From a virus, in IMG/VR virus record IMGVR_UViG_3300004448_000968, positions 1 to 26,246 of that record: DNA of 26,246 nucleotides, one strand, 5' to 3'. Positions within the stretch are counted from its first letter, which is position 1. Each line of letters begins with the position of its first letter. The position numbers and the translations under genes were made by a program. Positions 4,593 through 25,567 of the stretch are shown here, in pieces. The notes below the pieces were generated by a model. It ran no database searches, was not told the DNA's origin, and was given only the letters and a program-made list of their open reading frames with translations.

Positions 4593-5197
4593 TAAATTTT
4601 ATTTTCTAAAGATTCAACGTCAATCCCTACCATTGTGTTCATGCCTGCAACAGGGCTAGTTTGCAATTCTAAATAATGCATCATGTTTTCTGGAGTAGAT
4701 TCAATATAAGGATCGCTGTCCTCACCATCGTTGTTTATGCCTGGCTCTTGCCACCATGCTTCTACAACACCGTTGTTAATCACTGCCATATATCTCCAAC
4801 TTCTATTTCCAAACCCCACGTGGTTCTTTCCAATCAACATTCCCATAAATCTTGTGAAATTACCTGAACCATCTGGAATCACTTTAACATTTTTTAATTT
4901 TAACGAATCTGCCCATGCGTTCATCACAAATGAATCATTCACTGAACAACAATAAATCTCGTCAATACCCATGCTTTTAATTTTGTCTGCATTTGATTCA
5001 AATCCTGGCAATTGTTTTGATGTGCAAGTTGGAGTAAATGCTCCTGGTAAACTGAATAGCACAACTCTTTTACCTGCAAAATAGTCTTGAGTTGTTTTGT
5101 CAGACCAACAACCTTCTTCAAATGTGCATCCACCATCTGGTGCAATATCGCCGTCTCTTACTCTAAATGTTACGTGTGGTATTTTAAATCCCTTCAT
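4592..5197 (-). CDS. Peroxiredoxin (Prx5/AhpE-like redoxin)
   Basis: Thiol peroxidase that reduces H2O2 or organic peroxides. The peroxidatic motif LPGAFTPTCTSKQLPGFE, with C58 as the attacking cysteine and T55/P51 in place, is characteristic of the Prx5 group (PGAFTPxC). Downstream, IYCCSVNDSFVMNAWADSL and the GNRSWRYMAVINNGVVEAWWQEPG strand continue the redoxin fold. Cysteines at 24 and 30 precede the domain, and C103/C104-region residues could serve as resolving thiols. The 201 aa exceed a minimal Prx5 (about 160 aa), with the extra residues at the C-terminus. The ATG at 5197 has a strong AAGGAG site. It overlaps the upstream phosphatase by 14 nt and guaC by 1 nt. With rubrerythrin about 1 kb upstream it suggests an oxidative-stress module. 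Confidence 0.9.
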   Translation of the reverse strand: MKGFKIPHVTFRVRDGDIAPDGGCTFEEGCWSDKTTQDYFAGKRVVLFSLPGAFTPTCTSKQLPGFESNADKIKSMGIDEIYCCSVNDSFVMNAWADSLKLKNVKVIPDGSGNFTRFMGMLIGKNHVGFGNRSWRYMAVINNGVVEAWWQEPGINNDGEDSDPYIESTPENMMHYLELQTSPVAGMNTMVGIDVESLENKI

Positions 5198-6093: not shown

Positions 6094-6519
6094 TTATTTG
6101 CTTTCTAAGTAAGCATCCAACGTCTTCTGGAATTTACCTGCGTGTGACTTCTCTGCTTTGGCTAGTGTTTCAAACCAATCAGCAATTTCATCAAAACCTT
6201 CTTCTCTAGCAGTTCTTGCCATACCTGGGTACATGTCTGTGTACTCGTGTATTTCGCCTTTCACTGCGGACTTAAGGTTGTCTTCAGTTTCACCCATTGG
6301 TTCACCTGTTGCAGGATCTCCAACTTCTTCTAAATATTCTAGATGTCCGTGTGCGTGTCCTGTCTCACCTTCTGCTGTGCTTCTAAATACAGATGCTACA
6401 TCAGGTGCTCCTTCGATATCTGCTTTTTGAGCAAAGTAAAGGTATCTTCTGTTTGCTTCTGATTCACCAGCAAATGCGGCTCTCAAATTATCAGAAGTCT
6501 TTGTTCCTTTTAATGACAT
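6094..6519 (-). CDS. Rubrerythrin (diiron peroxidase, no rubredoxin domain)
   Basis: Ferritin-like diiron protein that reduces H2O2 in the rubrerythrin family. The 141 aa form a four-helix bundle with ligand motifs in order: E19 in [11 protein letters not shown]52 and H55 in [11 protein letters not shown]89 and E92 in [14 protein letters not shown], and E123 and H126 in [10 protein letters not shown]. The C-terminal rubredoxin domain of classical rubrerythrins is absent (no CxxC pairs), so electrons must come from a separate donor. The ATG at 6519 has AAGGAG 8 nt upstream and lies behind a near-consensus sigma70-type promoter (6542-6570), suggesting expression by unmodified host polymerase early in infection. 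The peroxiredoxin encoded about 1 kb downstream would act on the same substrate. Confidence 0.92.
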
Positions 6520-7972: not shown

Positions 7973-7980
7973 TATTTATC
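7973..7980 (-). promoter_or_regulatory. Late promoter-like box overlapping a gene junction
   Basis: Leftward GATAAATA, 5 nt before the ATG at 7967 and overlapping the stop of the preceding gene. If used as in T4, transcription would begin about at the start codon, so a leaderless message or chance AT-rich match are both possible. Confidence 0.3.
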
Positions 7981-8206
7981 TTTTTATTGGAGCACCAAAA
8001 AGTGAGGTACCTGTCATATCTAGAGCATTGTCAGTTGGTTTCTGCATTTTTGCTTTAGGTGGCATTGATGAAGCACCTTTTTTGCCATAGGCATCACGTG
8101 CTTTTTTGTTGCCTATCGCTATGTGTGGATTAGCCACTGATGCAACACTGCCAGCCGATGTGGCTCCTGCAGATGCTACTTCTGATATAATGTCTCTGAT
8201 ACGCAT
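7976..8206 (-). CDS. Small protein with capsid-targeting-like N-terminus
   Basis: A 76-aa protein, unknown beyond its sequence features. It begins MRIRDIISEVASAG, closely resembling the T4 internal-protein capsid-targeting pattern (MKTYQEFIAEA), including an I-S-E tripeptide where the gp21 head protease would cut (hydrophobic-x-E). The remainder is Ala/Ser/Gly-rich, then basic (NKKARDAYGKKG, PPKAKMQKP), as expected for a small DNA-associated head protein. The ATG at 8206 follows the stop at 8211 by 4 nt. Packaging into the head is inferred. Confidence 0.65.
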   Translation of the reverse strand: MRIRDIISEVASAGATSAGSVASVANPHIAIGNKKARDAYGKKGASSMPPKAKMQKPTDNALDMTGTSLFGAPIKR

Positions 8207-8210
8207 AATG

Positions 8211-8393
8211 TTATTTACCGTGTTTGTGTAAATTCTTTACACGTTTGGATGTTGAATATTTGGCATGTGGCACTTTAAGGTTCTTTTTACCGTATATGTC
8301 GCCCACCTTGTGCGTGTATACCAGCATTTCAGGATCCAACCCATAATGATAGTCCACACGGGCTTCTACCATTTTGAAATCCTTGTAACGCAT
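8211..8393 (-). CDS. Small basic protein with capsid-targeting-like N-terminus
   Basis: A 60-aa basic protein. The start MRYKDFKMVEARVD parallels neighbouring N-termini and the T4 internal-protein leader: a charged position 5, hydrophobics, then M-V-E followed by A as a candidate gp21 cleavage site. The C-terminal half (VGDIYGKKNLKVPHAKYSTS and KRVKNLHKHGK) is strongly basic and His/Lys-rich, suggesting DNA binding in the head. ATG at 8393; 4 nt separate it from the preceding gene's stop. No homologue is recognised, and a gene this small rests mainly on context. Confidence 0.6.
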   Translation of the reverse strand: MRYKDFKMVEARVDYHYGLDPEMLVYTHKVGDIYGKKNLKVPHAKYSTSKRVKNLHKHGK

Positions 8394-8667: not shown

Positions 8668-8675
8668 TATTTAAC
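8668..8675 (-). promoter_or_regulatory. Late promoter-like box
   Basis: Leftward GTTAAATA, 28 nt upstream of the ATG at 8640, overlapping the stop codon of the preceding gene. The core TAAATA is kept; the first bases differ from T4 TATAAATA. Confidence 0.4.
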
Positions 8676-8985
8676 CTTTTTTACGTCCGCCCTTCATGTT
8701 GGCGCACCAATGATACATTTTAGCCTTCTCTCCAGATGCGTTTTTAGCCTTCTTACGCAATGAAGTTACTGTGCCATTACAACTGGCACCTGATTTCTTT
8801 ACTCTGCCTGGACGGCTTTTGCCTTTTACTTGACCATCAGCAAAATTTTCGTTGGCTTTATTGTTACCCACATTTTTAAAACCAAACCTATTATTAGGAC
8901 CATATCCTTTTTTATGTATTAATCCTTGCGGCTTAATTGTTTGAGGCATGATAATCCAATCAGTAATGATGTCTCTTATCTTCAT
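8671..8985 (-). CDS. Basic probable head protein with conserved Cys-rich C-terminus
   Basis: A 104-aa, very basic protein. The start MKIRDIITDWI resembles the capsid-targeting-like leaders of adjacent genes but has D where the cleavage glutamate would be. A Gly/Asn-rich, probably flexible segment (GYGPNNRFGFKNVGNNKANE) follows, then ASCNGTVTSLRKKAKNASGE and KAKMYHWCANMKGG, a module I recall at the C-termini of several marine T4-like phage proteins. Two cysteines about 32 residues apart and many lysines suggest nucleic-acid contact. The ATG at 8985 overlaps the upstream stop by 4 nt (ATGA), so translation is coupled to the nucleotidase-like gene. Function unproven. Confidence 0.7.
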   Translation of the reverse strand: MKIRDIITDWIIMPQTIKPQGLIHKKGYGPNNRFGFKNVGNNKANENFADGQVKGKSRPGRVKKSGASCNGTVTSLRKKAKNASGEKAKMYHWCANMKGGRKKG

Positions 8986-9707
8986 CTCAGTTTAGGTGGA
9001 TGCCCTTTTTTGTCTATTTTGAATCCAAACTTTGCCGCTTGACGTTGTGTTTCGCCTGGCTTAACATCTGCAGTTGTGTTCTGTTTAGTAATGATTCCGA
9101 CACCTTCTTGTTTTGTTTGATATTGTTTTGTGTATGCTTCTAATTCTGATTTAACTTTACTTAACGAATCTCTGTTTGCTTGATACAGTATTCCAAAGCC
9201 ACCAGCACTTTGCCATTTTTGTATGTTGATAGGTCTATCGTCTATCAGTATGTTGGGCTGTTTGGTTTGTTTGTTTACAGCATACGATTCTTTTCTACCA
9301 GTAATAATTATTTCCTTAGGTTGTTCAATATTTTTACTAATCCAAACCTTTTTCCATTTTGCTGAATTCTCATTGTCTCCTCTTAACGGTGAAGAACAAA
9401 TACTAAAAGTTCCATCTGTGAAATCTTTCACCATCTTAATTAATTGATCTGTACTTGCAATTTTTGGTAAAGTTTCAAAAAAGTTTGTGCCTGTGATTCG
9501 TTTGATCACATCTGCTTTTAAATCTTTAGTTCTATCCGATGTAAGTTCTTTCCAGTGTTTAACACCGTACAATTTTTCTATACCACCGAAGAAGTCAGCC
9601 ATAACTCCATCCATGTCTAAATATACAATTGGTTTCGTTTCCATATCTTCATTATACAACTTTTTGTTGTATTTGTCAATATTGGAATCTAATTCCAAAA
9701 TACGCAT
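8982..9707 (-). CDS. 5'(3')-deoxyribonucleotidase-like HAD phosphatase with added N- and C-terminal tails
   Basis: A 241-aa protein whose core (about residues 25-195) matches the 5'-nucleotidase, deoxy (NT5C) type of HAD phosphatase, expected to dephosphorylate nucleoside monophosphates. Motif I is VYLDMDGVMADFF (D31, D33), motif II FSICSSPL (S105), motif III lies around GRKE, and motif IV is NILIDDRPIN (D156, D157). The first 24 residues begin MRILELDSN and are not part of the enzyme; about 40 extra residues at the end (TTADVKPGETQRQAAKFGFK, then KKGHPPKL) resemble a C-terminal module seen in other marine phage proteins. The ATG at 9707 overlaps the upstream stop by 1 nt (TAATG). The tails and location suggest a virion-packaged form; the substrate is unknown. 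Confidence 0.8.
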   Translation of the reverse strand: MRILELDSNIDKYNKKLYNEDMETKPIVYLDMDGVMADFFGGIEKLYGVKHWKELTSDRTKDLKADVIKRITGTNFFETLPKIASTDQLIKMVKDFTDGTFSICSSPLRGDNENSAKWKKVWISKNIEQPKEIIITGRKESYAVNKQTKQPNILIDDRPINIQKWQSAGGFGILYQANRDSLSKVKSELEAYTKQYQTKQEGVGIITKQNTTADVKPGETQRQAAKFGFKIDKKGHPPKLR

Positions 9708-12055
9708 TAATTAAAACCTAAATGTGTAACTTCTGGGTATCGTTGTTTGATTTTTCTGGCAAGTTCGTTGTGGAGTTTAATCTGTTGGTTCATGTGACCT
9801 TCTGGTTTTCCACCCGATATCATTGTAGGACCACCTGGTTCTTTGTCCACGGTAGTGTCTTGTTTTGGTGATTGTTTGTCTATGTGTTTTTTCAACCACT
9901 GAGTTGTTACACCAATAAACTCTTCCACAGGCACAGCACTCATTTCTTCAAAATCTGCACTGTAACCAAGTCCAGTTAAAAATTCTCTCATGCTGGCATT
10001 ACTCATGTAAGGAGTTTCCAACTCTTTATCTTTTGCCCACGCCATTGGAAATTCATACACAGTATGCTTTTCGCCATCAAAATCTTTTTCAGTTTTAAAA
10101 TAAGGAATCATATTAGCACCTTCTTTAACTGAATCTTCAGTTGCGACTGCATCTCTCATTCTCACATTCTTAAGGCCCATCTTTTCCAACTTCTCAGGCA
10201 TCTTTGTGACTATGAACTTACCACCTGTGTCCTGCTCGTCAAACTCGTAGCCTGCTGTTGTCATTAAATCTTTGATAGCAAAGTTTCCATCAGATGAACC
10301 AAATCCTTCTCCATCTGGCCAGTCATCATAATTTCGTTCTACTTCCTCTCCTGCCGCTTTTAATTCTTTTGCGTAAGCCGTGTATTCTTCTGCTGATATG
10401 AATTTTCTCATCACAGCCAGTCTCACAAGGTCCATACCTGATCCAAACGGTGCATCTTCTTTAACTGAATCTTCATTGTCTATAGAAGCCGCTACTGCTT
10501 GAGGTTGTTGTCCAGGTTGTTGTGTAGGTTGTTGTCCTTGATCTGGACTTAAATTTATTTTACCAAGTTCGATAGCAATTTTATTTAGATTTCCTTTTAA
10601 TGTACCTGGACTAACTTTTTGTCCTGCTGGAAACATTTTTTTTAAATCTCCTTGAGCATCCATTCTTTTAAATGCATCAGGGTGTCTAGGCGCAACGTAC
10701 TTTCTTAAATATGCTACAACTAAATCTGCAGGATATCCTTGAGATACATCTGTTTGATTTAAACCTGCTATTGTAACAATATCTTTGTAAAGTGTTTGTG
10801 ATTGAACTTTTGCTTGATCATCTGCGGAAATTTTAGATGCTGTTGCTGGATCATACAATGCTTTAATTTGATCTGGTACAATTTTTCTACCTGCCGCTTT
10901 TAAAGTGTCTAACCAACCTTCATCCAGATAAGTTCCTTCATTAGTTGATTCGTTTTTAATATCGTGTGATGCCAACACCATGCTCATCGCATCTGCCAGT
11001 CCAACTTTGTCCATGTTCATCTGCTCTAAGTCTGACGTGTCACCGTGGTCATTGAACACCGCCATGTATTCTTTTGCTTTCATTGGATCAAATCCTGCCT
11101 TGTTTAGGATGTCCTCGCTTCTGTAGTCCAGGTCTTCCTGCACCGCTGATTCTTTTTTGCTGACTTGCACTGTGAATTTATCTCCATCATACTCTACATC
11201 TTGTCCAGAGATCAGTTGATACATCTTTGCCAACAGTCTGTTGTCGTATTCAGGTTTGCCCTGACCTTTTTGAGGTTCTTTAATTTTGTTGGCTAATATT
11301 TGTACAAATGCTGTTTTGTCCACAACCATGGATCCTTCGTTGGTTGTTTGTAGTGCTTTTGCAACACTGGGGTGATCTGCTAGTCCAGGAGCAATTTTGT
11401 TAATCACTTCAACAGCACCTGTCATGTTACCACCTTTGTATTTAGGATTGTTTAAAACCCCATACGCCATTTTAATTTCTTTATCACTAAAGCCCATGTT
11501 GTCTTCTGTTCTCAATGCTGATCTTTTGTATCCTTTTTGAATAAAATCGTTTTCACGTTCTGCTGGAATCATTATGGTTTTCCCATTTTTATGAACATAC
11601 AACGATTTAACTTCAGCACCCATTCTTTTTAAGTCAGTTGCTTGTACACCGTCTTCTGTTTGAGATTTGCCTTTTTGAACTCTATCAAAATAGTGTGAAC
11701 TCATGTTTCCGTAGCCATGTCTCCATGCCATCTGTCTCAAAGTCTTTTCGTCTGAATCTTTAAATCTATCTGCCAGTTCTTGATCAGTCATGTCAGCATA
11801 TCTTTGTTTGCTTTTGATAACTGATGCTGGCATTCTTTCTTGAACGTTGTCTTCTGTTTTTAAATTTTTCTCAGCCCATCTATGTAATTCTTCTTTTCTT
11901 TTGGCTATTGTTGCTTGTGTTCTAGCATCACTCATTCTAGGATCTTTTTGAATGTCTTGTAGTGAAGCCATTTTGGCTTTGTAATCTTCCCTGTCTTTTG
12001 GATCAGGTTGATTTGCTATTTTAAATTCTACTAAAAATAAATCTCTTAATTTCAT
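9707..12055 (-). CDS. Large modular probable head-internal protein (polyprotein-like)
   Basis: A 782-aa soluble protein without a recognised enzyme domain. It starts MKLRDLFLVEFKIA, a good match to the T4 capsid-targeting pattern with L-V-E as a candidate gp21 site. Several small, mostly helical modules follow, separated by similar acidic linkers: KTEDNVQE (66-73), QTEDGVQA (132-139), RTEDNMGF (182-189), AVQEDL (304-309), NEDSVKED (527-534) and ATEDSVKEG (638-646). A Q/P-rich spacer lies at 505-519. Recognisable module starts include MTDQELADRFKDSDEKTL (89-106) and VRLAVMRKFISAEEYTAYAKEL (544-565). The linkers suggest a beads-on-a-string chain, possibly cut by the head protease. The ATG overlaps the upstream gene by 4 nt. 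Prohead core or packaged polyprotein is the favoured role; a tail or scaffold protein is the alternative. Confidence 0.7.
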   Translation of the reverse strand: MKLRDLFLVEFKIANQPDPKDREDYKAKMASLQDIQKDPRMSDARTQATIAKRKEELHRWAEKNLKTEDNVQERMPASVIKSKQRYADMTDQELADRFKDSDEKTLRQMAWRHGYGNMSSHYFDRVQKGKSQTEDGVQATDLKRMGAEVKSLYVHKNGKTIMIPAERENDFIQKGYKRSALRTEDNMGFSDKEIKMAYGVLNNPKYKGGNMTGAVEVINKIAPGLADHPSVAKALQTTNEGSMVVDKTAFVQILANKIKEPQKGQGKPEYDNRLLAKMYQLISGQDVEYDGDKFTVQVSKKESAVQEDLDYRSEDILNKAGFDPMKAKEYMAVFNDHGDTSDLEQMNMDKVGLADAMSMVLASHDIKNESTNEGTYLDEGWLDTLKAAGRKIVPDQIKALYDPATASKISADDQAKVQSQTLYKDIVTIAGLNQTDVSQGYPADLVVAYLRKYVAPRHPDAFKRMDAQGDLKKMFPAGQKVSPGTLKGNLNKIAIELGKINLSPDQGQQPTQQPGQQPQAVAASIDNEDSVKEDAPFGSGMDLVRLAVMRKFISAEEYTAYAKELKAAGEEVERNYDDWPDGEGFGSSDGNFAIKDLMTTAGYEFDEQDTGGKFIVTKMPEKLEKMGLKNVRMRDAVATEDSVKEGANMIPYFKTEKDFDGEKHTVYEFPMAWAKDKELETPYMSNASMREFLTGLGYSADFEEMSAVPVEEFIGVTTQWLKKHIDKQSPKQDTTVDKEPGGPTMISGGKPEGHMNQQIKLHNELARKIKQRYPEVTHLGFN

Positions 12056-12261
12056 TTCTTTCTACTCCTAAACTGTACAGGTCCAGTCATGTATGGTTTG
12101 GAAAACCATAATTTAAACCAATCCGGATCTCCGGGTTTTAAGCCTAGTTTTCTTTCCTTTTGCTTTAAAGCAGTAGCAGTCTGACTAATGTTTTCGCCCA
12201 TGGACGGTTCATTACCCTCTGTGCCAATGCCTGCCAAACGTTTTAAATCGCTTATGTTCAT
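12052..12261 (-). CDS. Small protein of unknown function in head-protein cluster
   Basis: A 69-aa protein starting MNISDLKRLAGIGTEGNEPS, a variant of the leader shared by its neighbours (charged residue at position 5, hydrophobics, then a T-E-G), followed by a helical Lys/Gln-rich stretch (TATALKQKERKLGLKPGD) and the aromatic, basic end DWFKLWFSKPYMTGPVQF. I do not recognise a family. The ATG at 12261 is 2 nt from the nucleotidyltransferase stop, and the TGA overlaps the next ATG by 4 nt, so it sits firmly in a translationally coupled series. Confidence 0.62.
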   Translation of the reverse strand: MNISDLKRLAGIGTEGNEPSMGENISQTATALKQKERKLGLKPGDPDWFKLWFSKPYMTGPVQFRSRKK

Positions 12262-12268
12262 ATTTATA
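12261..12268 (-). promoter_or_regulatory. Exact T4 late promoter box TATAAATA at a gene junction
   Basis: Leftward TATAAATA, identical to the T4 late consensus. It overlaps the stop of the nucleotidyltransferase gene and touches the ATG at 12261, so a transcript from it would lack that start codon and would first serve the 782-residue gene. Real promoter or chance match in AT-rich DNA cannot be separated by eye. Confidence 0.35.
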
Positions 12269-12839
12269 CTGTTACAGGATTTAATTTAAGTCCTGTTCTC
12301 ACCTGATTATACATTTCTTCTGCTGTTTTAGGGTCTATGGGTACAGCATTTATAAAAGTTCTTTTGTCTCCACGAGCGGCTAAATCACGCATTTTTGAAG
12401 CACTCATGCCTTCAAGACCTTGTGCATCTGGATCTCTTTCACCTGCACTCACTACTTTTACTGAATTAAAGTTATATTCTTTACCATTGTACTTGTTTAA
12501 TAATTCGTTGAATTGATTTACTCTGTCAGAACCTGCTACATATATGATATCTGTGTAACCCATTTGTTCTAATTTTTTCATTGCTTCAACCCATGTTCGT
12601 ACTGCTTTATCTCCCACTTTGATCATTGGAAACATTTTTTGAGCAAAGGTTAATTTTTGTGCAAATGTTAATGGATCAGTTTTTTCATTTTGAGTGTGTG
12701 TTATAAAGATATAAGGGTCGCCTATCTGTGCTTTGATAACTTCACCTATCTTTTTGTGTCCTGCTGTTGGAGGATTCATTCTTCCAAAGGCGAATACAGC
12801 AGTTTTATTTGGTGCTTCTAGTATCTCTGTGATCAGCAT
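12264..12839 (-). CDS. Nucleotidyltransferase of the HIGH/cytidylyltransferase superfamily
   Basis: A 191-aa nucleotidylyl transferase of the class containing NMN adenylyltransferase, phosphopantetheine adenylyltransferase and cytidylyltransferases. The ATP-binding signature is AVFAFGRMNPPTAGH (TxGH at 25-28), a mid-domain segment IIYVAGSDRVNQF fits the family, and MSASKMRDLA (145-154) corresponds to the ISSTxxR region. The first residues MLITEILEAPNK carry a short leader before the Rossmann strand, with I-L-E then A resembling a head-protease site. Similar phage proteins are usually annotated as NMN adenylyl- or cytidylyl-transferases; the substrate cannot be read from sequence. It is closely spaced in the head-protein series (2-nt gaps on both sides). 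Confidence 0.82.
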   Translation of the reverse strand: MLITEILEAPNKTAVFAFGRMNPPTAGHKKIGEVIKAQIGDPYIFITHTQNEKTDPLTFAQKLTFAQKMFPMIKVGDKAVRTWVEAMKKLEQMGYTDIIYVAGSDRVNQFNELLNKYNGKEYNFNSVKVVSAGERDPDAQGLEGMSASKMRDLAARGDKRTFINAVPIDPKTAEEMYNQVRTGLKLNPVTV

Positions 12840-13731: not shown

Positions 13732-14085
13732 TTAATGATTTAATAATATACTGTTAATTGTTCCGTCAGTGTAAGAAACACTTGCTCTTAACCACACAAA
13801 GTTTCCTGTAAAATTGTACACAAAAGCACCGTCTTTACCGGCAGTTGTACTGTCGTATAAAGCACCATCAATATCAAACCAGTCAGTGGTTGCTGGTGTT
13901 GTTGCTAGAGTACCTTGCATTTGTATTGTTCCTGCAACGCCAATAACATTGATTTGAACTGTGTGGAAACCATCGGATCTGCCGTAGTAACCATCACCTT
14001 TAAAATTTTCACTCACAACTGTTGCAACCGTACTATCTCCCGGGTGTGTTGTTGCTGATAATATTATTTCACTTGTTGCTGGCAT
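13732..14085 (-). CDS. Probable beta-rich virion structural protein
   Basis: A 117-aa protein of alternating short beta-strands: MPATSEIILSATTHPGDSTV, a GDGYYGRSDGFHTVQINVIG segment, TIQMQGTLATTPATTDWFDI and FVYNFTGNFVWLRASVSYTD. It has no cysteine, no membrane helix and a Ser/Thr/Gly-rich composition. The NFTGNFVW(L/I)RA motif and size match small structural proteins I remember in marine myoviruses, perhaps a decoration or neck/tail component. ATG at 14085 with a TAAATA box at 14093-14100; 4 nt separate its stop from the next gene. The exact virion location is unknown. Confidence 0.7.
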   Translation of the reverse strand: MPATSEIILSATTHPGDSTVATVVSENFKGDGYYGRSDGFHTVQINVIGVAGTIQMQGTLATTPATTDWFDIDGALYDSTTAGKDGAFVYNFTGNFVWLRASVSYTDGTINSILLNH

Positions 14086-14120: not shown

Positions 14121-16370
14121 TTAGGCTTGTTTTTCAAGCAGTTTAACACTGTTACCAAGGTCCAATGCCAATTTTTTATCTTTCACTGTGACCTTTACTA
14201 TACCGCCGTTTTTAAGCGATCCAAACAGTAGTTCTTTTGAAAGGTCTTTCTTAATCTTGTTGTCAATTAATCTTTGCATAGGTCTTGCACCCATCTTAGC
14301 ATCGTATCCGTTTTCTACTAGATAATCTATTGCTTCGTCAGTAAGTTCTAATGTTACATCTTTTTCTTTTAACTGAGTTTTTAATTCAAGCATAAATTTA
14401 CCAACAATTTTGATCAGTACTTCTTTAGCAAGTTTTTTGAATACAACAGTACCATCTAATCTGTTTCTAAATTCAGGAGCAAAGTAACGTTTTATATCCT
14501 TATCATCATATGCTGAATCTTTTACAGTGTTAAAACCCATTACATTTTTATCATTTTGTTCAGCACCAAGGTTAGTGGTTAGAATCAGCACAATATTTTT
14601 AGCACTTGCTGTTTTACCATTATTACCTTGTATTGAACCTTCGTCCATAATTTGTAATAGTATTTGTGAAACATCTGGATGAGCTTTTTCTATTTCATCT
14701 AATAATAATACACAGTTCGGATACTCTTGTAATTTAGTAATTAATAATCCTGCACTATCTTCAAACCCTACATATCCTGGAGGTGAGCCAATTAGTTTTG
14801 CTACTGCATGTTTTTCTTGATATTCTGACATATCAAACCTAACCATTTTTACTCCCAGTTGTTCGGATAACTGTTTAGCAGTTTCTGTTTTACCACAACC
14901 TGTCGGACCCATGAATACAAATGATCCAATAGGTTTATTGTCACGTTTTAATCCTGCTTGAGCAACTAACACTTTGTCTATTACCATGTCTATTGCTTCA
15001 TCTTGACCATACACATTGGCTTTCATGTTTTTTGATAAATTAGCAAGATTACTTGATTCTTTTTCAGCAATATTTTCTATAGGCATTTTAACTAACTTGG
15101 ACAATTCATACTGAATTGATTCTTCGTTTACAACTCTGTCAGTTTGTTTTTCTTTTAGATTAAATCGTGAACAAGCCAAATCAATTAAATCTATTGCTTT
15201 GTCTGGTAATTTTTTGTCTGTTTGATATTTTATACTTAATTTTACAGCAGAAGCAATTGCATCATCTGTTATAGTTGCGTTGTGATATTCTTCATAGTAT
15301 TTTTTAAGACCTTGTAATATTTCTAATGCAGTTGTTTTGTCTGGTTCGTCTACAGTTATTCTAGCAAAACGTCTCATTAATGCTCTGTCTTTTTCAAAAT
15401 ACTTTCTGTATTCTTCCCAAGTTGTAGAAGCAACCACTTTAAGTTCACCTTTAGTTAATACCGGTTTTAAAAGATTAGCCAAGTCGTTAGCAGTATTTCC
15501 GCCACCACCTGCACCTGCACCTGACATATTGTGTGCTTCATCTATAAAACAAATTGCTTTACCTTTTTTCTTTAAACCGTTTAATACCATTTTAAATCGT
15601 TCTTCAAAATCACCACGATATTTAGAACCAGCCAACATTGCACCTATATCTAAATTATAAACTTCGTAGCCTTTTAAAAAGTCTGGACAAGTTTCGTTAA
15701 CAATATTAAATGCAAGTCCTTCAGCAATGGCAGTTTTACCAACACCAGGATCACCAACAAGTATTACATTGTTTTTCATTCTACGTCCAATAGTTAATGC
15801 TATTTGATTTAATTCGTCAATTCTTCCTATTACAGGATCAATTTTTTTCTTCTTAACTTCAGCATTAAGATTTGATGTATATTTGTTAAGTGCTTTTTTA
15901 GTCTCACTTTCATCTATTTCGTCTTCAAACATTTCTGTTATTTCGCTGTGTAGATAATCCATAAACTTATCCTTATCAACTTTTGCTTCAATTAGATAAT
16001 AGTATGCCCAACTCTTTGTTTCACTCATTAAACTTAAGAATACATCTGTTAAATCTATGTTAGTCCTACCACTAAACAACACCTGAGTAAATGCTCTGTT
16101 AAGTACTCTTTCCACACTGATAGTTTTTTTAGGCTTGTACTTGACTGCTGTTACTTTGATACCCTCTAATTTATGATCTAAGTAAGTTATTAAATGTGAT
16201 TTTAAACTGTCTACATCAGTGCCATATCCTTTTAAGATATCGTAAAATTTTTCATCTTCACACATAGAGAACAACATGTGTTCAAGAGTAACATATTCAT
16301 GTTTGTGAGTTTTAGATAACTTTACTGCTCTATCGAATACACTTTGTAAAGCACTACTAGGTTCAACCAT
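14121..16370 (-). CDS. clpA: ClpA-type AAA+ unfoldase
   Basis: A 749-aa double-AAA+ ATPase that would unfold proteins for a Clp protease. A Clp-N repeat domain spans ~1-145 (AVKLSKTHKHEYVTLEHMLF). D1 Walker A is GDPGVGKT (206-213), Walker B FIDEAH (275-280) and pore loop KYRG (Y251). D2 Walker A is GPTGCGKT (488-495), Walker B LLLDEIEKA (555-563) and pore loop GYVG (532-535); arginine-finger regions RALMRRF and FRNRLD are present. The D1-D2 junction is short, so the ClpB middle domain is absent. MGF (611-613) sits where ClpA/ClpX/ClpC have the IGL/IGF/VGF ClpP-docking loop. No ClpP is encoded in this window, so host ClpP is the likely partner. The start overlaps the deformylase gene by 8 nt. 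Confidence 0.92.
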   Translation of the reverse strand: MVEPSSALQSVFDRAVKLSKTHKHEYVTLEHMLFSMCEDEKFYDILKGYGTDVDSLKSHLITYLDHKLEGIKVTAVKYKPKKTISVERVLNRAFTQVLFSGRTNIDLTDVFLSLMSETKSWAYYYLIEAKVDKDKFMDYLHSEITEMFEDEIDESETKKALNKYTSNLNAEVKKKKIDPVIGRIDELNQIALTIGRRMKNNVILVGDPGVGKTAIAEGLAFNIVNETCPDFLKGYEVYNLDIGAMLAGSKYRGDFEERFKMVLNGLKKKGKAICFIDEAHNMSGAGAGGGGNTANDLANLLKPVLTKGELKVVASTTWEEYRKYFEKDRALMRRFARITVDEPDKTTALEILQGLKKYYEEYHNATITDDAIASAVKLSIKYQTDKKLPDKAIDLIDLACSRFNLKEKQTDRVVNEESIQYELSKLVKMPIENIAEKESSNLANLSKNMKANVYGQDEAIDMVIDKVLVAQAGLKRDNKPIGSFVFMGPTGCGKTETAKQLSEQLGVKMVRFDMSEYQEKHAVAKLIGSPPGYVGFEDSAGLLITKLQEYPNCVLLLDEIEKAHPDVSQILLQIMDEGSIQGNNGKTASAKNIVLILTTNLGAEQNDKNVMGFNTVKDSAYDDKDIKRYFAPEFRNRLDGTVVFKKLAKEVLIKIVGKFMLELKTQLKEKDVTLELTDEAIDYLVENGYDAKMGARPMQRLIDNKIKKDLSKELLFGSLKNGGIVKVTVKDKKLALDLGNSVKLLEKQA

Positions 16371-16854
16371 TAATAAATCCTTTTAATATTTTTTCTTGTT
16401 TCTTTTTTGCCATATCCAAACGCATTTTTGAAACTCTTTGATCAAAGGTAATGCCTTGAAGATGATCGTATTCATGTAAAAAAACTCTTGCATGAAAACC
16501 TTCTAACTTAATTATACATTCTTTTTGTTGTGTGTCAAGGTATTTTACTCCCACTATGTCTGGTCTTTTAACTTTCATAAACAGTCCAGGAAAACTTAAA
16601 CAACCTTCCATCATTTCCACTTGATTTGTACTTACTTCAGTTATCAAAGGATTAATAATGGACATAGGTTTATCTTCACCCATAATAAAAATTTGTGCAT
16701 CTATGCCTACTTGGTTTGCGGCTAGTCCTACACCTTCGTATTTTTTCATTATATCAAACATTTCAGCAGATATCTTTTCAGCATCCATTTTTGTAAAATC
16801 AAAGTCGTTAACTTTTTTTTCTAAAAAATCGTCTGGTGCTTTAATTAATTTCAT
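16363..16854 (-). CDS. def: Peptide deformylase
   Basis: Metal-dependent enzyme that removes the N-formyl group from nascent proteins. All three family motifs are intact: GVGLAANQVG (41-50), EGCLSFPG (83-90, metal ligand C85) and HEYDHLQG (127-134, ligands H127 and H131, catalytic E128). The 163 aa are close to bacterial enzymes and longer than the most trimmed phage forms, with a basic C-terminal helix (MRLDMAKKKQEKILKGF) retained. Deformylases are known in marine T4-like phages, where faster maturation of photosystem or phage proteins has been proposed. It overlaps dnaJ by 14 nt and clpA by 8 nt, placing it in one co-translated cassette behind the sigma70-type promoters at 17.7 kb. Confidence 0.95.
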   Translation of the reverse strand: MKLIKAPDDFLEKKVNDFDFTKMDAEKISAEMFDIMKKYEGVGLAANQVGIDAQIFIMGEDKPMSIINPLITEVSTNQVEMMEGCLSFPGLFMKVKRPDIVGVKYLDTQQKECIIKLEGFHARVFLHEYDHLQGITFDQRVSKMRLDMAKKKQEKILKGFING

Positions 16855-17686
16855 TGCGTATCCTTGTTAATGTTTCTACCCATTCTTGTTTGCTTACTGA
16901 CGGTATGTCTGCTTGAATTGTCAAATAAATGTTTCCTCTACCACCGCCTCTTGTTGGAAGACCTTGTTCACCAATACTTAATACAGTTCCGGGTTGTGTG
17001 CCTTTAGGAACTGTGATTGCTAAATTTCTTCCTTCTAGTGTTTTAACAGTTTGTTTTGTGCCTAACATCAAATCAAACACATTTACTCTTTCAATACAAT
17101 GTAAGTTTATACCGTCTCTTGCCCATTTGGCATGTGGTCTAATTTTAATTCTTACAAGTAGATCTCCTCTAGGTAAGTTCTTTTGTAAATCATCTCCCAA
17201 TGAAGGAAACTTTATTGTGCTGTTATTTTCAATACCTTTAGGCAATGTTAAATTTACACTTTGCTCACGACCATCTGTTAATCTGTAAGAAGCAACTAAT
17301 TCTTTACCTTTTAAAACATCTTCCAGTTCTATTTGTGCTTCTATCACAATGTCTCTATTTCTTCTATGTTGTTGTCTTCTAAATGGACTAGCACCACCTC
17401 CAAAAAATTGATTAAACACATCTCCTACATCTTGTGGAAAATCGTCTGCTCTAAATTCGTATGAACGGTTTCCTCCTTGATTCTGTCCTGGACTAGTACC
17501 AAATCTGTCATAGTGTGTTTTCTTTTGTGGATTTTTAAGTGTATCGTATGCTTCATTCACTTTTTGAAATTGAGCACCATCACCACCTTTGTCAGGATGA
17601 TGTTTCATGGCTTGTTTTTTATATGCCTGTTTGATTTCTGATTCTGATGCGTTTCTATTGACGCCTAGTGTTGTATAATAATCCAT
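16841..17686 (-). CDS. dnaJ: DnaJ/CbpA-type J-domain co-chaperone
   Basis: A 281-aa Hsp40. The J domain (1-70) has helix II KQAYKKQAMKHHPDKGG with the HPD motif at 30-32. A short Gly/Phe-type linker contains NQFFGGGASPFRRQQ. Two C-terminal substrate-binding beta-domains follow (IVIEAQIELEDVLKGKE, LTLPKGIENNSTIKF, GDLLVRIKIRPHAKWARDG and ITVPKGTQPGTVLSIGEQGL). The CxxCxGxG zinc-finger region is absent, so it is a class B/CbpA-like DnaJ. It probably recruits host DnaK for folding or for delivering substrates to the neighbouring ClpA. ATG at 17686 has no clear ribosome-binding site; two sigma70-type promoters lie just upstream. Full-length J-proteins are uncommon phage cargo. Confidence 0.93.
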   Translation of the reverse strand: MDYYTTLGVNRNASESEIKQAYKKQAMKHHPDKGGDGAQFQKVNEAYDTLKNPQKKTHYDRFGTSPGQNQGGNRSYEFRADDFPQDVGDVFNQFFGGGASPFRRQQHRRNRDIVIEAQIELEDVLKGKELVASYRLTDGREQSVNLTLPKGIENNSTIKFPSLGDDLQKNLPRGDLLVRIKIRPHAKWARDGINLHCIERVNVFDLMLGTKQTVKTLEGRNLAITVPKGTQPGTVLSIGEQGLPTRGGGRGNIYLTIQADIPSVSKQEWVETLTRIRNEIN

Positions 17687-17692
17687 ATGTTT

Positions 17693-17720
17693 AATATAGT
17701 GTTTCTTTTTTAAATGTCAA
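17693..17720 (-). promoter_or_regulatory. Sigma70-type promoter, proximal to dnaJ
   Basis: Leftward TTGACA (17715-17720), 16-bp spacer, TATATT (17693-17698). The predicted transcription start falls about at the dnaJ ATG, so its message would be leaderless or nearly so. Confidence 0.6.
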
Positions 17721-17751
17721 TAGTATTTAATGTTTATAAAGTCACACCTAT

Positions 17752-17780
17752 ATTGTATCGGATTTTGGCTTAAAAGTCAA
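17752..17780 (-). promoter_or_regulatory. Sigma70-type promoter, distal to dnaJ
   Basis: Leftward TTGACT (17775-17780), 17-bp spacer, TACAAT (17752-17757), near-consensus. Predicted start near 17745, giving a leader of about 60 nt before dnaJ. It lies in the 98-bp gap after the holin-like gene and would drive dnaJ-def-clpA with host RNA polymerase. Confidence 0.8.
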
Positions 17781-17784
17781 TTGA

Positions 17785-18123
17785 TTATTTGTTTGATTTT
17801 GCTCTTGATCCAGTGTATAAACCAAACCATGCCGCACCTGCACCGACCACTATAGAAACAAGTCCTGATTGTTCCATTGTGGGAGCAGGCATTTCCATGT
17901 ACCAAACTACCACTTTGTACAACAAATAAATGTAAGTTGTAATGAATACTCTTGGAAAAATTCTCCAAGCATCGACGGCTCTTGCCAAATGAATGAGCCA
18001 AGCAAAAGGGTTTGGTCCTAAATCTTTTATACTAGTATCTACTTCTAATTCCACAGAAACTTTTTTCGTCACTGTATTTTTATCTACTGGTACTACCAAT
18101 TTATCTTCTTTTAAGTCAGCCAT
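17785..18123 (-). CDS. Holin-like two-helix membrane protein
   Basis: A 112-aa membrane protein. A charged N-terminus (MADLKEDKLVVPVDKN, then TKKVSVELEVD) precedes AWLIHLARAVDAWRIFPRVF, a hydrophobic helix ITTYIYLLYKVVVWYM (about 63-78) and a second helix SGLVSIVVGAGAAWFGLYTG (about 87-106), ending in basic GSRAKSNK. Two helices, a short loop and a charged C-terminus fit a class II holin, and the gene ends the block containing endolysin and spanins. I use the ATG at 18123, which forms a TAATG overlap with the preceding stop; an extension to 18171 only re-reads that gene. A non-lytic small membrane protein is the alternative. Confidence 0.7.
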   Translation of the reverse strand: MADLKEDKLVVPVDKNTVTKKVSVELEVDTSIKDLGPNPFAWLIHLARAVDAWRIFPRVFITTYIYLLYKVVVWYMEMPAPTMEQSGLVSIVVGAGAAWFGLYTGSRAKSNK

Positions 18124-18728
18124 TATTTTATACCTTCGATCTTTGCATCTCTTTTTCTGTGACCATTCCAAGCCATGAAGCCACCTATTCTCAATGACCA
18201 GTATGCCAAGTAGTTCATGGTGAAGAAACCGTTCACGATGATGTTGATGTCTCTGAATATCTCGTCTGCTCTCGCTTGCGTGATTTCACCCATTGTATCT
18301 TTTTTGCTGATTTTTAAAAGTGTTTTGTATTTGTATGCATAGTCATGAACAAGTCCACCTATTAACAATACACCAACTGGTGAGAAAAAAGGTCTTAGAA
18401 ACTTAGGTATGCTCGCACCATCAAATTGGAAACCTGCTGGGATCACATATTCTCTTCCATCGATATTGTATTTCCAGTCGTCTGTTAGTACCCAATTTCT
18501 TGTCGATAGCAACCACATCACGATTGCTTTCCAAAAACCTTTGCCTTTGGTTGCGATTGGTACAGGTTGCAATTTTGGCATTCCTTTGTAATTGAATTTT
18601 GTTTTTACTTTTCCGTAGTTGTCGTCGAAGTGATTAATTGTTGCCGCTACTATTACAACAGCGATCAATATTGACCATTGCCAAAATTTTACTGCTAGTG
18701 CTATGATATCTAATCCAAATATTTCCAT
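18123..18728 (-). CDS. DUF1353-type protein with N-terminal membrane anchor
   Basis: A 201-aa protein with an N-terminal hydrophobic helix (about residues 8-27, IIALAVKFWQWSILIAVVIV AAT region). A cytoplasmic or periplasmic domain of the DUF1353 family follows: YVIPAGFQFDGASIPKFLRP (about 104-123) is the signature, followed by GGLVHDYAYKYK with the conserved H-D pair. DUF1353 proteins are common in phages, often near lysis or tail genes, and their biochemical role is not established. The HDYAY segment suggests a possible active site. ATG at 18728 with a GGAATT ribosome site and an AATAAATA box 23-30 nt upstream. It overlaps the holin-like gene by 1 nt. Confidence 0.75.
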   Translation of the reverse strand: MEIFGLDIIALAVKFWQWSILIAVVIVAATINHFDDNYGKVKTKFNYKGMPKLQPVPIATKGKGFWKAIVMWLLSTRNWVLTDDWKYNIDGREYVIPAGFQFDGASIPKFLRPFFSPVGVLLIGGLVHDYAYKYKTLLKISKKDTMGEITQARADEIFRDINIIVNGFFTMNYLAYWSLRIGGFMAWNGHRKRDAKIEGIK

Positions 18729-18750: not shown

Positions 18751-18758
18751 TATTTATT
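18751..18758 (-). promoter_or_regulatory. T4-type late promoter-like box
   Basis: Leftward AATAAATA, one mismatch from TATAAATA, about 23 nt before the ATG at 18728 and overlapping the stop of the nuclease gene. Confidence 0.5.
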
Positions 18759-19191: not shown

Positions 19192-19848
19192 TTACTTTTT
19201 CTTTTTCTTTTTCTTAAAGGGATTTGATGGTTTTTTTATTTTTTTGAATGGAGCCGCGATTGCTTTACCTGCCGCCTTGCAGGCATTTGCCGCTGGTCTC
19301 GTGTCAACTGTGATGCTGGGTTGTAGTGTGATACCAACACCAAGTGCCAGTTTAACATCTGCACCCACTGTCAGTTTGCCGTCTTCCACTGTTGCACCGC
19401 CACCTACTTTGGCACCGATCTGTGGACCAACTGAAACTTTTGCACCAACAGACGCATTGTTTCTTTCGCCACCAACTGTGGTACTTGCTCCCACTTCAGC
19501 ACATGAACCTGCTATTGCACCTGCTTCACCTTTGGCACCGTTGGTTCCTATCTGTCCTGAAACTCCCACGTCTGAATAAACTTTTGTTCCTGCGTGTGCT
19601 TCTGATTTGACTCCAACTCCACCAACTTTGGTTTCATTCTCTACGTTTGAGTATGCTCCCACTTCTGCATGAGCACCTACACTGGCACTTGCGTTGCCTT
19701 TTTTTGCTTTTGCTACTGCACCTGCTTCTGTTTCTGCGTATGCACCTGCGTTGGCTGTTGTGCCTTTACCTAGGTTCTTTGATGTGTCTGCGTTTGCTCC
19801 AGCCTTCGCTGAACTCTTTGTTGTCTTTGCTTTTGCTTCTGTTGCCAT
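19192..19848 (-). CDS. Ala/Gly/Val-rich repetitive protein with poly-lysine tail
   Basis: A 218-aa low-complexity protein. From about 20 to 175 small residues alternate with short polar ones (ANAGAYAETEAGAVAKA, ASASVGAHAEVGAYSNVEN, GAKVSVGPQIGAKVGGGATV), a pattern suiting stacked beta-strands such as a beta-solenoid or fibre shaft. There is no signal peptide or transmembrane helix. The last ~20 residues are extremely basic (PFKKIKKPSNPFKKKKKKK). There are only two cysteines (in GSCAEVG and NACKAAG). Function is unknown; a DNA- or envelope-binding structural protein is plausible. ATG at 19848 with TGGAGTAAC-type ribosome site; the upstream gene ends 1 nt before. The repeats create a long antisense open frame on the plus strand that I regard as an artefact. 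Confidence 0.72.
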   Translation of the reverse strand: MATEAKAKTTKSSAKAGANADTSKNLGKGTTANAGAYAETEAGAVAKAKKGNASASVGAHAEVGAYSNVENETKVGGVGVKSEAHAGTKVYSDVGVSGQIGTNGAKGEAGAIAGSCAEVGASTTVGGERNNASVGAKVSVGPQIGAKVGGGATVEDGKLTVGADVKLALGVGITLQPSITVDTRPAANACKAAGKAIAAPFKKIKKPSNPFKKKKKKK

Positions 19849-23337: not shown

Positions 23338-24051
23338 ATGGGTAAAAAAACGTCCAGAAGACGCCAGAACAGGGCAAACGTCCTACCAATCAAACAATAC
23401 CTTCCAGAAAAACCACAAGATGTTAAGATTGTTCCTAGAACTGTTAATCAGGAATCTTACCTTCTTAAATTGTTAGATCCATCCAAAGACATTGTGTTTG
23501 GTGTAGGTCCAGCAGGTACTGGAAAGACAATGATTGCTGTTCAGGTGGCTATCCAAATGTTCAAAGAAAAACAAGTCAATAAGATAGTGGTAACACGTCC
23601 GGTGGTAAGTGTTGATGAAGACATAGGTTTCCTTCCAGGTAGTTTAGAGGAAAAGATGGCTCCATGGACTATACCTATATTTGATGTGTTTAAATTATAC
23701 TTTACCAAAGCAGACATACAAAATATGTTGTTTGAGGGTGTAATTGAAATATCTCCATTGGCTTTTATGCGTGGTAGAACTTTTCATAGTTGTTACATAG
23801 TAGCAGATGAAATGCAAAACGCCACTGCAAGTCAAATGAAGATGTTGTTAACGAGAATAGGCAGTCGAAGCAAATTAGCAGTAACTGGAGATCTCGCTCA
23901 GACAGATAGACCCAAAGACAATGGATTGTCTGACTTCATTGATAGACTTAATCAAAAGTCAAGTAGTTTAATTGATATAGTGAACTTTATTAAAAGTGAC
24001 GTTCAAAGGCACGAAGCAGTCAAAGAAGTTTTAAGTATTTACGGAGACTGA
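23338..24051 (+). CDS. phoH: PhoH-like ATPase
   Basis: A 237-aa P-loop ATPase of the PhoH family, the only rightward gene here. A basic N-terminus (MGKKTSRRRQNRANVLPIKQ) precedes Walker A VGPAGTGKT, the family segments VTRPVVSVDEDIGFLPGSLE and APWTIPIFD, Walker B IVADEMQNATASQMKMLLTR, and the sensor-like VTGDLAQTD. PhoH is widespread in marine phages; a helicase-like role on RNA/DNA and a link to phosphate stress have been proposed but not settled. I choose the ATG at 23338, with AAAGGAG 5 nt upstream, over an ATG at 23308 that lacks such a site. Its 3' end overlaps the convergent parvulin gene by 13 nt. It may form its own transcription unit. Confidence 0.92.
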   Translation: MGKKTSRRRQNRANVLPIKQYLPEKPQDVKIVPRTVNQESYLLKLLDPSKDIVFGVGPAGTGKTMIAVQVAIQMFKEKQVNKIVVTRPVVSVDEDIGFLPGSLEEKMAPWTIPIFDVFKLYFTKADIQNMLFEGVIEISPLAFMRGRTFHSCYIVADEMQNATASQMKMLLTRIGSRSKLAVTGDLAQTDRPKDNGLSDFIDRLNQKSSSLIDIVNFIKSDVQRHEAVKEVLSIYGD

Positions 24052-24380
24052 TTTATAGTAACATCTTGATTTCTACGAATAATGTGGAAACCAAATGCTG
24101 TACAACAAATACCACTGGACTCGCCAGGCTGTAATCCGTCTAGGTAAATCATAAAATCTTTATCCATTTGTTCACGTTTTATTTTTCCTAGATCACCACC
24201 ATTGGCTTTTCCGCTTGGGCAATCGCTATACATTTTTGCGGCTTGCTCGAATGTTAATTCGCTGTCTAACATCTTTTTTTGAATATCAGCAATTAAAAAT
24301 AATGCTTCTTCCCTTGATACATTTCGTTGACTTCTTGTTGCATCTTCGTGTGCTATTAATATGTGACTACATCTACTCAT
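24039..24380 (-). CDS. Parvulin-type peptidyl-prolyl isomerase
   Basis: A 113-aa single-domain PpiC-like rotamase that accelerates cis/trans isomerisation before proline. The fold is readable from CSHILIA at the N-terminus, an insert helix (SREEALFLIADIQKKML), the hallmark FEQAAKMYSDCPSGKANGGD followed by LG, and the closing ESSGICCTAFGFHIIRR (FGFHII matches the parvulin active-site strand). No signal peptide or membrane anchor, so cytoplasmic. The ATG at 24380 lies within the end of thyX (8-nt overlap), suggesting co-translation. It converges with phoH, the two stop codons lying 13 nt inside each other. Prolyl isomerases are unusual in phages; folding of phage virion proteins is a possible role. 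Confidence 0.87.
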   Translation of the reverse strand: MSRCSHILIAHEDATRSQRNVSREEALFLIADIQKKMLDSELTFEQAAKMYSDCPSGKANGGDLGKIKREQMDKDFMIYLDGLQPGESSGICCTAFGFHIIRRNQDVTINQSP

Positions 24381-25002
24381 TTTTTAAATACTTCCAACTT
24401 GCTGGAAACTCCTCTTTACAAATATTATGTATTCTATCTGCTACATCACGTGTTTCTTCCTGAGTATCTTTAGCACAACGTAGGTTGCAAACTCTAGCAA
24501 ACGCATATAGTGTGCCTGACCAATACCATTCGGTCATCATATTTTGTGGTAAAACCATACGTGCTTGTTCTGGTGCTACACCTTTTTGTATCAATGCATT
24601 GTATAAAATTAGACAACTTTCCATTGTTGTTTCCATCATATGTTTCATTGTGGGATCTAATTCAATTTCACCAGCACTGCCTTGTTTAGAATTTTGTGGT
24701 CTACCTCTCCATGTTTTTGTGCTGTATAATTCAGGCGGAAAGTCAACATATCGTCTTGATACTTCATTCCATACTAAACCAACTTGATGTTTCACAAGTT
24801 GTCTTGCTACAAATATTGGTGCTTTAATTCTAAATTGTAATGATGCATGAGCAAAAGGAGACCAGTGATTGTGTTCAGCAAGATACTTTATTAATTTTTC
24901 ATCTGATGCTTCAAATGTTTCTTTGTTTTTACTGTAACTTACTCTTGCGGCATTCACCACAGATAAGTCTGTACCCATTTTGTCTACTAGTTCTACGATC
25001 AT
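24373..25002 (-). CDS. thyX: Flavin-dependent thymidylate synthase
   Basis: Makes dTMP from dUMP using methylene-THF, FAD and a reductant. The 209 aa follow the family: [12 protein letters not shown] near the N-terminus, [20 protein letters not shown], the dUMP/FAD signature region [20 protein letters not shown], and the C-terminal [20 protein letters not shown] with [20 protein letters not shown]. The RHRx7S motif appears as KHQ followed by eight residues and S, with both Arg replaced; similar variants exist in phage enzymes as I recall them. Its ATG overlaps the ferredoxin stop by 4 nt (ATGA), so the two are translationally coupled. It would help supply thymidine for AT-rich phage DNA independently of ThyA. 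Confidence 0.94.
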
Positions 25003-25322
25003 TTGTCTTTAAAATATTTCTTTAATTTGTCTGCTTCGCCTGAATGTTTTTCATAGCCTGGCATAGGCTCTTTCTGTGTGTCTAACACTTGCCATGCTTC
25101 TGCCCATTGTCTATTAAATTTTACCCAACCTTCTGCCTCAGGATCTGTGTCTGCTTTAATGGCATCTTCGGGACATTCGGGCTCACACACACCACAGTCT
25201 ATACATTCATCAGGATTAATAACCAGCATGTTTTCGCCCTCATAGAAGCAATCTACAGGGCAAACTGACACACAGGTAGTGTGTTTACACAAGATACATT
25301 TATCATTAACTATATACGTCAT
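24999..25322 (-). CDS. fdxA: 7Fe (3Fe-4S/4Fe-4S) ferredoxin, FdxA type
   Basis: A 107-aa low-potential electron carrier. The N-terminal cluster motif is [17 protein letters not shown] (C9, C12, C17, C21, C25) and the second is [16 protein letters not shown], the spacing of Azotobacter FdI/FdxA-type seven-iron ferredoxins, in which one C-x2-C cysteine is not a ligand of the 3Fe cluster. The C-terminal ~50-residue helical extension ([20 protein letters not shown] and the DKLKKYF end) is also typical. I start at the ATG at 25322, which forms a TAATG overlap with the preceding stop; an extension to 25340 would only re-read the neighbour. It is coupled to thyX (4-nt overlap). Partner enzyme unknown. 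Confidence 0.93.
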
Positions 25323-25567
25323 TATGCTATCCAGTTCCACACACCTCTGATTGCTAATAGCAAATACATCAATTCCATTAATGCTCTTGGTGTGTCTTTA
25401 TCTTTAATTCCCATTCTTACCCATATTGTGCAACTGAAACAGGCAATTGCCCAACCTATCCATTGTATTTCAGTGTTACCACTGCTTAACAAAAAGGCAC
25501 TCATCATTGCCAATATAAATCCTAACCATCTCCAACCATCGATATTGTGGTAGTACCGGATCTTCAT
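25322..25567 (-). CDS. Small three-helix membrane protein
   Basis: An 81-aa membrane protein beginning [20 protein letters not shown], with hydrophobic segments at about 14-31, 36-53 and 62-79 ([18 protein letters not shown]). Loops carry NTEIQW and the charged [12 protein letters not shown]. The three-helix layout with a charged P-x-A-L loop before helix 3 resembles PnuC/SemiSWEET-like half-transporters and the small proteins at 3297-3536 and 5510-5806 here, but no substrate motif is seen. ATG at 25567, 1 nt after the gp44 stop; the stop shares one base with the ferredoxin ATG. Conserved tight coupling to ferredoxin and thyX suggests stable inheritance as a unit; function unknown. Confidence 0.75.

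Follow-up and report, generated by a model that had tools for sequence, protein, structure and literature searches.

A conserved dnaJ-(def)-clpA operon, predicted to serve proteostasis, in a jumbo-type phage lineage related to Phosso and Atu_ph07

Chaperone and Clp genes of jumbo phages have so far mostly been listed singly. A survey of jumbo phages recorded sporadic DnaJ proteins, with ClpA, ClpX, ClpS or ClpP in subsets (PMC7824862), and the report on the Agrobacterium jumbo phage Atu_ph07 lists ClpA, DnaJ, ClpB, ClpP and ClpS and proposes roles in assembly or aggregate clearance (PMC6102473). In Atu_ph07, dnaJ and clpA are adjacent (gp293 DnaJ, gp292 ClpA) and ClpP and ClpS are encoded elsewhere in the genome; the available part of that report does not present the pair as a conserved operon (PMC6102473). 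The Sinorhizobium jumbo phage Phosso (PV764938, genes 193-195) carries dnaJ, a peptide deformylase gene and a Clp ATPase gene in this order on one strand, and also encodes ClpP and ClpS. Here we describe a dnaJ-def-clpA operon in a 26,246-base virus fragment from a marine, giant-type phage (IMGVR_UViG_3300004448_000968, hereafter the window, to which all window coordinates refer). Compared with the window, Phosso has looser spacing before def, its proteins are 29-43% identical and no DnaK was found, whereas Atu_ph07 has no deformylase and no DnaK was detected. Among named phages, the window DNA polymerase is nearest to that of Phosso (49%), followed by Atu_ph07 (47%). The operon is best read as a conserved proteostasis operon, as predicted from its genes, of a jumbo-type phage lineage related to these two phages. 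Its constant core is the pair of J-protein and ClpA-type unfoldase, and the deformylase is a putatively old, repeatedly lost third member.

The three genes of the operon are as follows:
16841-17686, minus strand: dnaJ, 281 amino acids, type B (zinc-finger-less) J-domain protein with an intact HPD motif
16363-16854, minus strand: def, 163 amino acids, peptide deformylase with the motifs GVGLAANQVG, EGCLSFPG and HEYDH
14121-16370, minus strand: clpA, 749 amino acids, double-AAA+ Hsp100 unfoldase of ClpA type with the ClpP-docking tripeptide MGF

Adjacent genes overlap by 14 nucleotides (nt) (dnaJ/def) and 8 nt (def/clpA), and these reading frames, their strand, coordinates and overlaps agree with those given in an earlier note on this DNA. 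That note had called the first product a full DnaJ, which proved wrong. The protein contains the Pfam domains DnaJ and DnaJ_C, and the HPD motif is kept in 44/44 aligned J-protein rows, but the cysteine-rich zinc-finger region that type A proteins carry between the J/G-F region and the C-terminal domain is absent (CxxCxGxG in 0/44 rows; a single Cys in the window protein). We therefore assign it to type B (CbpA/DnaJ2-like, with an HPD J-domain and a DnaJ C-terminal domain and without the zinc finger), since it lacks the zinc finger and is closest, among solved structures, to Thermus DnaJ2. Its best NCBIfam match was DnaJ_bact, with a score under the cut-off for that family. An Rki-like J-protein is unlikely, given the DnaJ_C domain. 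The deformylase matched Pfam Pep_deformylase (2e-42) and, as its best NCBIfam hit, pept_deformyl above the TIGR00079 cut-off, which made it the only one of the three proteins to pass a curated NCBIfam cut-off; the motifs GxGLAAxQ, EGCLS and HExDH were present in 29/29 rows, with single conservative departures at most. The unfoldase contains Clp_N, AAA, AAA_lid_9, AAA_2 and ClpB_D2-small domains (Pfam), with intact Walker A and B motifs in both AAA+ modules (GDPGVGKTA, CFIDEAHN, GPTGCGKTE and LLLDEIEK). Its best NCBIfam match was TIGR02639 (ClpA) at 870 bits, below the equivalog cut-off of 993 bits, so we name it ClpA-like. It matched E. coli ClpA structures over the full length, MGF aligning with the IGL loop, and a docking tripeptide of the form [IMVL]G[FI] was found in the D2 loop in 51/51 ClpA rows. 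In one relative, the ClpA alignment revealed an intein-like insert within the first Walker A motif (L035:8001-11351; GDPGVGK|AQPLDS...VTHN|TA; L- and G-numbers are labels of related viral contigs or loci).

Searches of viral contigs returned 45 loci with the ClpA query and 18 with the DnaJ query, and the window proteins were mapped onto these loci. The order dnaJ-(def)-clpA on one strand was found wherever the contig end does not cut the locus, apart from four very distant ClpA relatives (L043-L046, 34-35%), and the short overlaps were kept in most contigs with readable dnaJ and clpA. Among cultured jumbo phages, Phosso holds the complete trio and Atu_ph07 the dnaJ-clpA pair. The earlier note had named lack of conservation in relatives as one outcome that would refute its proposal; the survey instead found order and overlaps kept across dozens of contigs and also among cultured jumbo phages, which rules out a one-off arrangement. 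A coupled trio behind a host-type promoter is thus supported. On the ClpA tree, the def-bearing state changes about four times and def occurs on both sides of the drawn root, which suggests an old gene that was repeatedly lost. The distance matrices of dnaJ, def and clpA agreed closely (Mantel r 0.79-0.88; 0/2000 permutations as high), as expected under joint inheritance.

Relatives also supply candidate partners for the operon. The closest long relative, G006 (IMGVR_UViG_3300030376_006203, 148 kb; ClpA 92%, Def 93%, DnaJ 86%), encodes full DnaK, GroEL, a Cpn10-family protein, ClpS, HSP20 and two ClpP-like proteins. In this contig, groEL and dnaK lie side by side, both full-length (139546-143197), and each has a perfect 12/12 sigma70-type promoter. 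A chimeric origin of the DnaK and GroEL genes was rejected, as the same flanking phage genes lie beside 85-92% identical DnaKs in other contigs. The best cellular match of this DnaK reached only ~75% (Pelagibacteraceae), and the DnaK tree gives moderate support to a grouping of most phage DnaKs next to a small set from Pelagibacterales. In many contigs, a second locus has the order hsp20, dnaK, clpS and heme oxygenase gene, with a ClpP-like gene further on. The trio together with DnaK and ClpS was also found in G029, G031, G033 and G034. Weak HSP70 matches in the ClpA reading frames of G001-G003 were noise (12-13 bits, under the cut-off), and 'Acinetobacter phage MD-2021a' and similar ClpA/ClpB/DnaJ records were judged bacterial contamination and left out. 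As a separate observation on the second locus, genes for heme oxygenase and a ferredoxin-dependent bilin reductase family protein (L079:13348-14787, equal to G006 93348-94787) adjoin clpS, hsp20 and the ClpP-like gene, with orthologues in L105, L111-L114, L135 and L157. The earlier note had proposed a redirection of host protein folding and turnover. As stated, this finds no support: genes for DnaK, ClpS and ClpP-like proteins are present in close relatives, so that phage-owned partners are no less likely than the DnaK and ClpP of the host.

The sequence before and within the operon contains the following promoter-like elements:
17752-17780, minus strand: predicted distal sigma70-type promoter, TTGACT-N17-TACAAT (10/12)
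17693-17720, minus strand: predicted proximal sigma70-type promoter, TTGACA-N16-TATATT (11/12), ending 6 nt before the dnaJ ATG
17723-17731, minus strand: ATTAAATAC, candidate T4-type late promoter box of variant sequence, directly upstream of the proximal -35
16511-16538, minus strand: perfect 12/12 sigma70-type match inside def, TTGACA-N16-TATAAT, 141 nt before clpA
18751-18758, minus strand: T4-type late motif AATAAATA before the DUF1353 gene, two genes upstream of dnaJ on the same strand

Both sigma70-type elements before dnaJ, which the earlier note had described, lie in a 98-nt gap. Over the 10-kb region, sigma70-type matches were no commoner than chance (30 found vs 31.4 expected), and there they can be put down to AT-rich sequence; for the 98-nt gap this explanation was ruled out, as two non-overlapping sites of at least 10/12 occurred in 0.12% of dinucleotide shuffles and such a pair with one site of at least 11/12 in 0.02%. 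In four relatives, sites of at least 10/12 were 4- to 10-fold enriched upstream of genes compared with coding windows. The distal promoter was kept only in the closest relatives (L002, L003 and L007), and sites equivalent to the proximal one were found before dnaJ in L003, L007, L009 and L054, in G034 (11/12) and in G029 (12/12). The end of the -10 element and the ATG are often 6 nt apart, a spacing that suggests leaderless or near-leaderless mRNAs. The site within def is a possible internal promoter for clpA. The window and six close relatives share both of its hexamers unchanged, and three more distant relatives lack them, a pattern that is not decisive because the stretch also encodes Def.

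Late-type signals were also present. The T4-type late motif ATAAATA was 22- to 30-fold enriched upstream of genes in these phages, TAAATAC was enriched upstream of genes in relatives, and all RATAAATA sites of the window (6/6) lie on the minus strand, 5/6 of them within 45 nt upstream of gene starts (P ~9e-6). The ATTAAATAC box, which is weaker than the GATAAATA consensus, was kept before dnaJ in L002-L009 and L016. In L011, L013, L017, L021, L022, L023, L030, L035 and L052, GATAAGTA lies 11-12 nt before the dnaJ ATG; it differs by one base from the late motif GATAAATA and is rare elsewhere across the genomes counted, and in many relatives this late-type motif stands before dnaJ in place of the sigma70 site. 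A late sigma factor homologue is reported for Atu_ph07 (PMC6102473). The genes flanking the operon are as follows:
17785-18126, minus strand: upstream flank, small membrane-protein-like gene (phrog_10198, unknown function; holin-like by inspection only)
18123-18728, minus strand: upstream flank, DUF1353 protein (Pfam PF07087; phrog_1158, labelled tail assembly chaperone)
13732-14085, minus strand: downstream flank, virion structural protein homologue (phrog_14467)

The first of these adjoins dnaJ in L017, L052 and most members of the window's clade, and almost every relative has the phrog_14467 virion gene after clpA. Around the operon lie endolysin, spanin and virion genes, with lysis-type genes upstream and a virion structural gene downstream. 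The label 'early', which the earlier note had drawn from the promoters alone, is thus not supported as stated, given the lysis and virion surroundings, the late motifs and the replacement of the sigma70 site in relatives. Early expression is plausible in the window's clade, and late transcription of the operon is likely as well.

On balance, we favour a reading in which this conserved operon works as a proteostasis unit of jumbo-type phages. Def would deformylate nascent proteins while phage translation runs high, the J-protein would hand unfolded clients to DnaK, and ClpA would unfold clients and feed them through its [IM]GF loop to ClpP for degradation, with ClpS, where present, selecting substrates. 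The DnaK and ClpP partners would probably be partly phage-own, since marine relatives carry the second locus, and the remaining gaps would be filled by ClpP and GrpE of the host, and by its DnaK if the phage lacks one. Translational overlap would let Def, J-protein and ClpA be produced together. In the window's clade, a host-type promoter would drive the operon, probably joined by late transcription, which suggests service through much of infection, including virion production, and not only early. We infer the interactions, timing, clients and choice of ClpP in this scheme from the observed gene identities, motifs, synteny, promoter motifs and partner genes of relatives; on that footing, these viruses appear to bring along most of a folding-and-degradation system.

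Several results weigh against this reading. G006 encodes divergent ClpP-like proteins, which score ~51 bits against solved ClpP and may be unable to dock ClpA. Searches found neither DnaK nor ClpS in G009 (83 kb, ClpA 63%) and no DnaK in Phosso and Atu_ph07, both of which have ClpP and ClpS. The 26-kb window fragment contains none of dnaK, clpS and clpP, so the partner genes are seen only in relatives. Of those relatives, G006 was found through ClpA; the search that led to G029, G031, G033 and G034 used DnaK, so these four give no measure of frequency. Def is absent from about one third of the sampled lineages, and is thus not essential to the unit.

The DnaK kinship in relatives, from which alone the host is deduced, allows a further proposal if the hosts are Pelagibacterales. 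Among 14 sampled Pelagibacterales genomes, 11 had no ClpS and no ClpA-level match, 3 had both, and 12 had a strong ClpP match. The sample includes incomplete single-cell or metagenome assemblies, so that absence of ClpA or ClpS in one genome is weak evidence, although the overall pattern is consistent. Nothing relevant on ClpA or ClpS in SAR11 was found in the literature searched (mostly without subscription papers). We tentatively suggest, as a minority possibility, that the two loci form a nearly complete system (dnaJ-def-clpA plus dnaK-hsp20-clpS-ClpP-like, with GroEL and a Cpn10 protein in one clade), which would supply Pelagibacterales that have ClpP and lack ClpA and ClpS with a protease directed by ClpA/ClpS and with a phage Hsp70, and so open a new degradation route. 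Should ClpA and ClpS be missing from the likely hosts, the phage would contribute a protease specificity instead of strengthening one already there, and would itself define how proteins turn over in the infected cell.

Other explanations were weighed against the same evidence. An early host takeover, in which the J-protein commandeers host DnaK and ClpA turns host ClpP on host proteins right after entry from host-type promoters, would fit the beyond-chance promoters before dnaJ (with counterparts in G034, G029, L009 and L054), the ClpP-docking loop kept in all ClpA rows, and the retention of ClpP in sampled Pelagibacteraceae that mostly lack ClpA and ClpS; RB43 Rki, moreover, is early, binds DnaK and stabilises sigma32 (PMC3486835). 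However, dnaJ sits among lysis and virion genes, and many clades have no early-type promoter and instead carry the late-type GATAAGTA ~12 nt before the ATG, and we regard this explanation as unlikely. Those same surroundings could be read as a sign of virion morphogenesis, in which the main role of DnaJ would be to chaperone the assembly of head, tail or internal head proteins and that of ClpA to unfold them: the operon keeps a constant place beside a virion structural gene and near lysis genes, late motifs lie nearby, and assembly roles for phage ClpA and DnaJ have been proposed (PMC7824862; PMC6102473). This would leave unexplained the deformylase, the conserved ClpP-docking loop and the separate dnaK-hsp20-clpS-clpP-like locus of relatives, and it seems to us slightly less probable still.

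Evasion of defence, by a J-protein or ClpA that disturbs chaperone-based infection sensing or degrades defence proteins, draws on the requirement of host DnaJ for phage sensing by bNACHT25 (PMC12169576), and the moraphage authors raise the same idea (PMC12619734). No gene of the neighbourhood points to defence, however, and conservation over deep divergence is unlike typical fast-turnover anti-defence genes, so that we give it very little weight. Equally improbable in our view are three separately useful genes that share an operon with the common promoter as their only link. Repeated loss of Def while dnaJ-clpA stays, and the occurrence, in Mosig and other marine phages, of deformylase genes with neither dnaJ nor clpA beside them, would agree with such independence, but order and overlap persist over large divergence and the genes appear to be inherited jointly.

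Elsewhere in the window, further features were observed. A small parvulin-type prolyl isomerase (24039-24380, PF00639) is another protein-folding gene of the fragment. Peroxiredoxin-like, rubrerythrin and 4Fe-4S ferredoxin genes (4592-5197, 6094-6519 and 24999-25340) suggest redox or oxidative-stress functions. An IMP dehydrogenase/GMP reductase family protein is encoded at 3540-4592, and an Ala-rich low-complexity protein with a lysine run at its end and no Pfam match at 19192-19848. Similar short N-terminal stretches (MKIRDI.., MKLRDLFLVE, MLITEILE) occur in several consecutive proteins (7976-8206, 8211-8393, 8671-8985, 9707-12055, 12052-12261 and 12264-12839); they resemble the T4-type propeptides that target proteins to the capsid and carry an (L/I)xE cleavage site. 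One protein with such an N-terminus is nucleotidyltransferase-like, which suggests that enzymes may be packaged in the head.

Beyond Phosso and Atu_ph07, three described systems resemble parts of the proteostasis operon. Moraphages are likewise large aquatic phages, with ClpA near-core and DnaJ, DnaK and HSP20 in some; unlike the relatives described here, they have Bacteroidota hosts and a Flavobacteriaceae-derived DnaK, and the available part of the report mentions neither a deformylase nor a dnaJ-def-clpA operon (PMC12619734). RB43 Rki is also a phage J-protein, binds DnaK and experimentally matters for growth (PMC3486835), but it is not a generic cochaperone, whereas the window J-protein has a DnaJ C-terminal client domain and neighbours ClpA and Def. 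Deformylases of cyanophages and pelagiphages belong to the same family as the window Def and also come from marine phages, but that of Pelagibacter phage Mosig has no annotated dnaJ or clpA neighbour. No description of the dnaJ-def-clpA operon, of the two-locus arrangement or of a phage DnaK, GroEL and ClpS combination was found in the same searched literature. Set beside these systems, a deeply conserved operon with intact motifs and a second partner locus in marine relatives would turn a list of genes into a testable system, with predicted pairings of the J-protein with phage DnaK and of ClpA with host ClpP, and with ClpS as adaptor.

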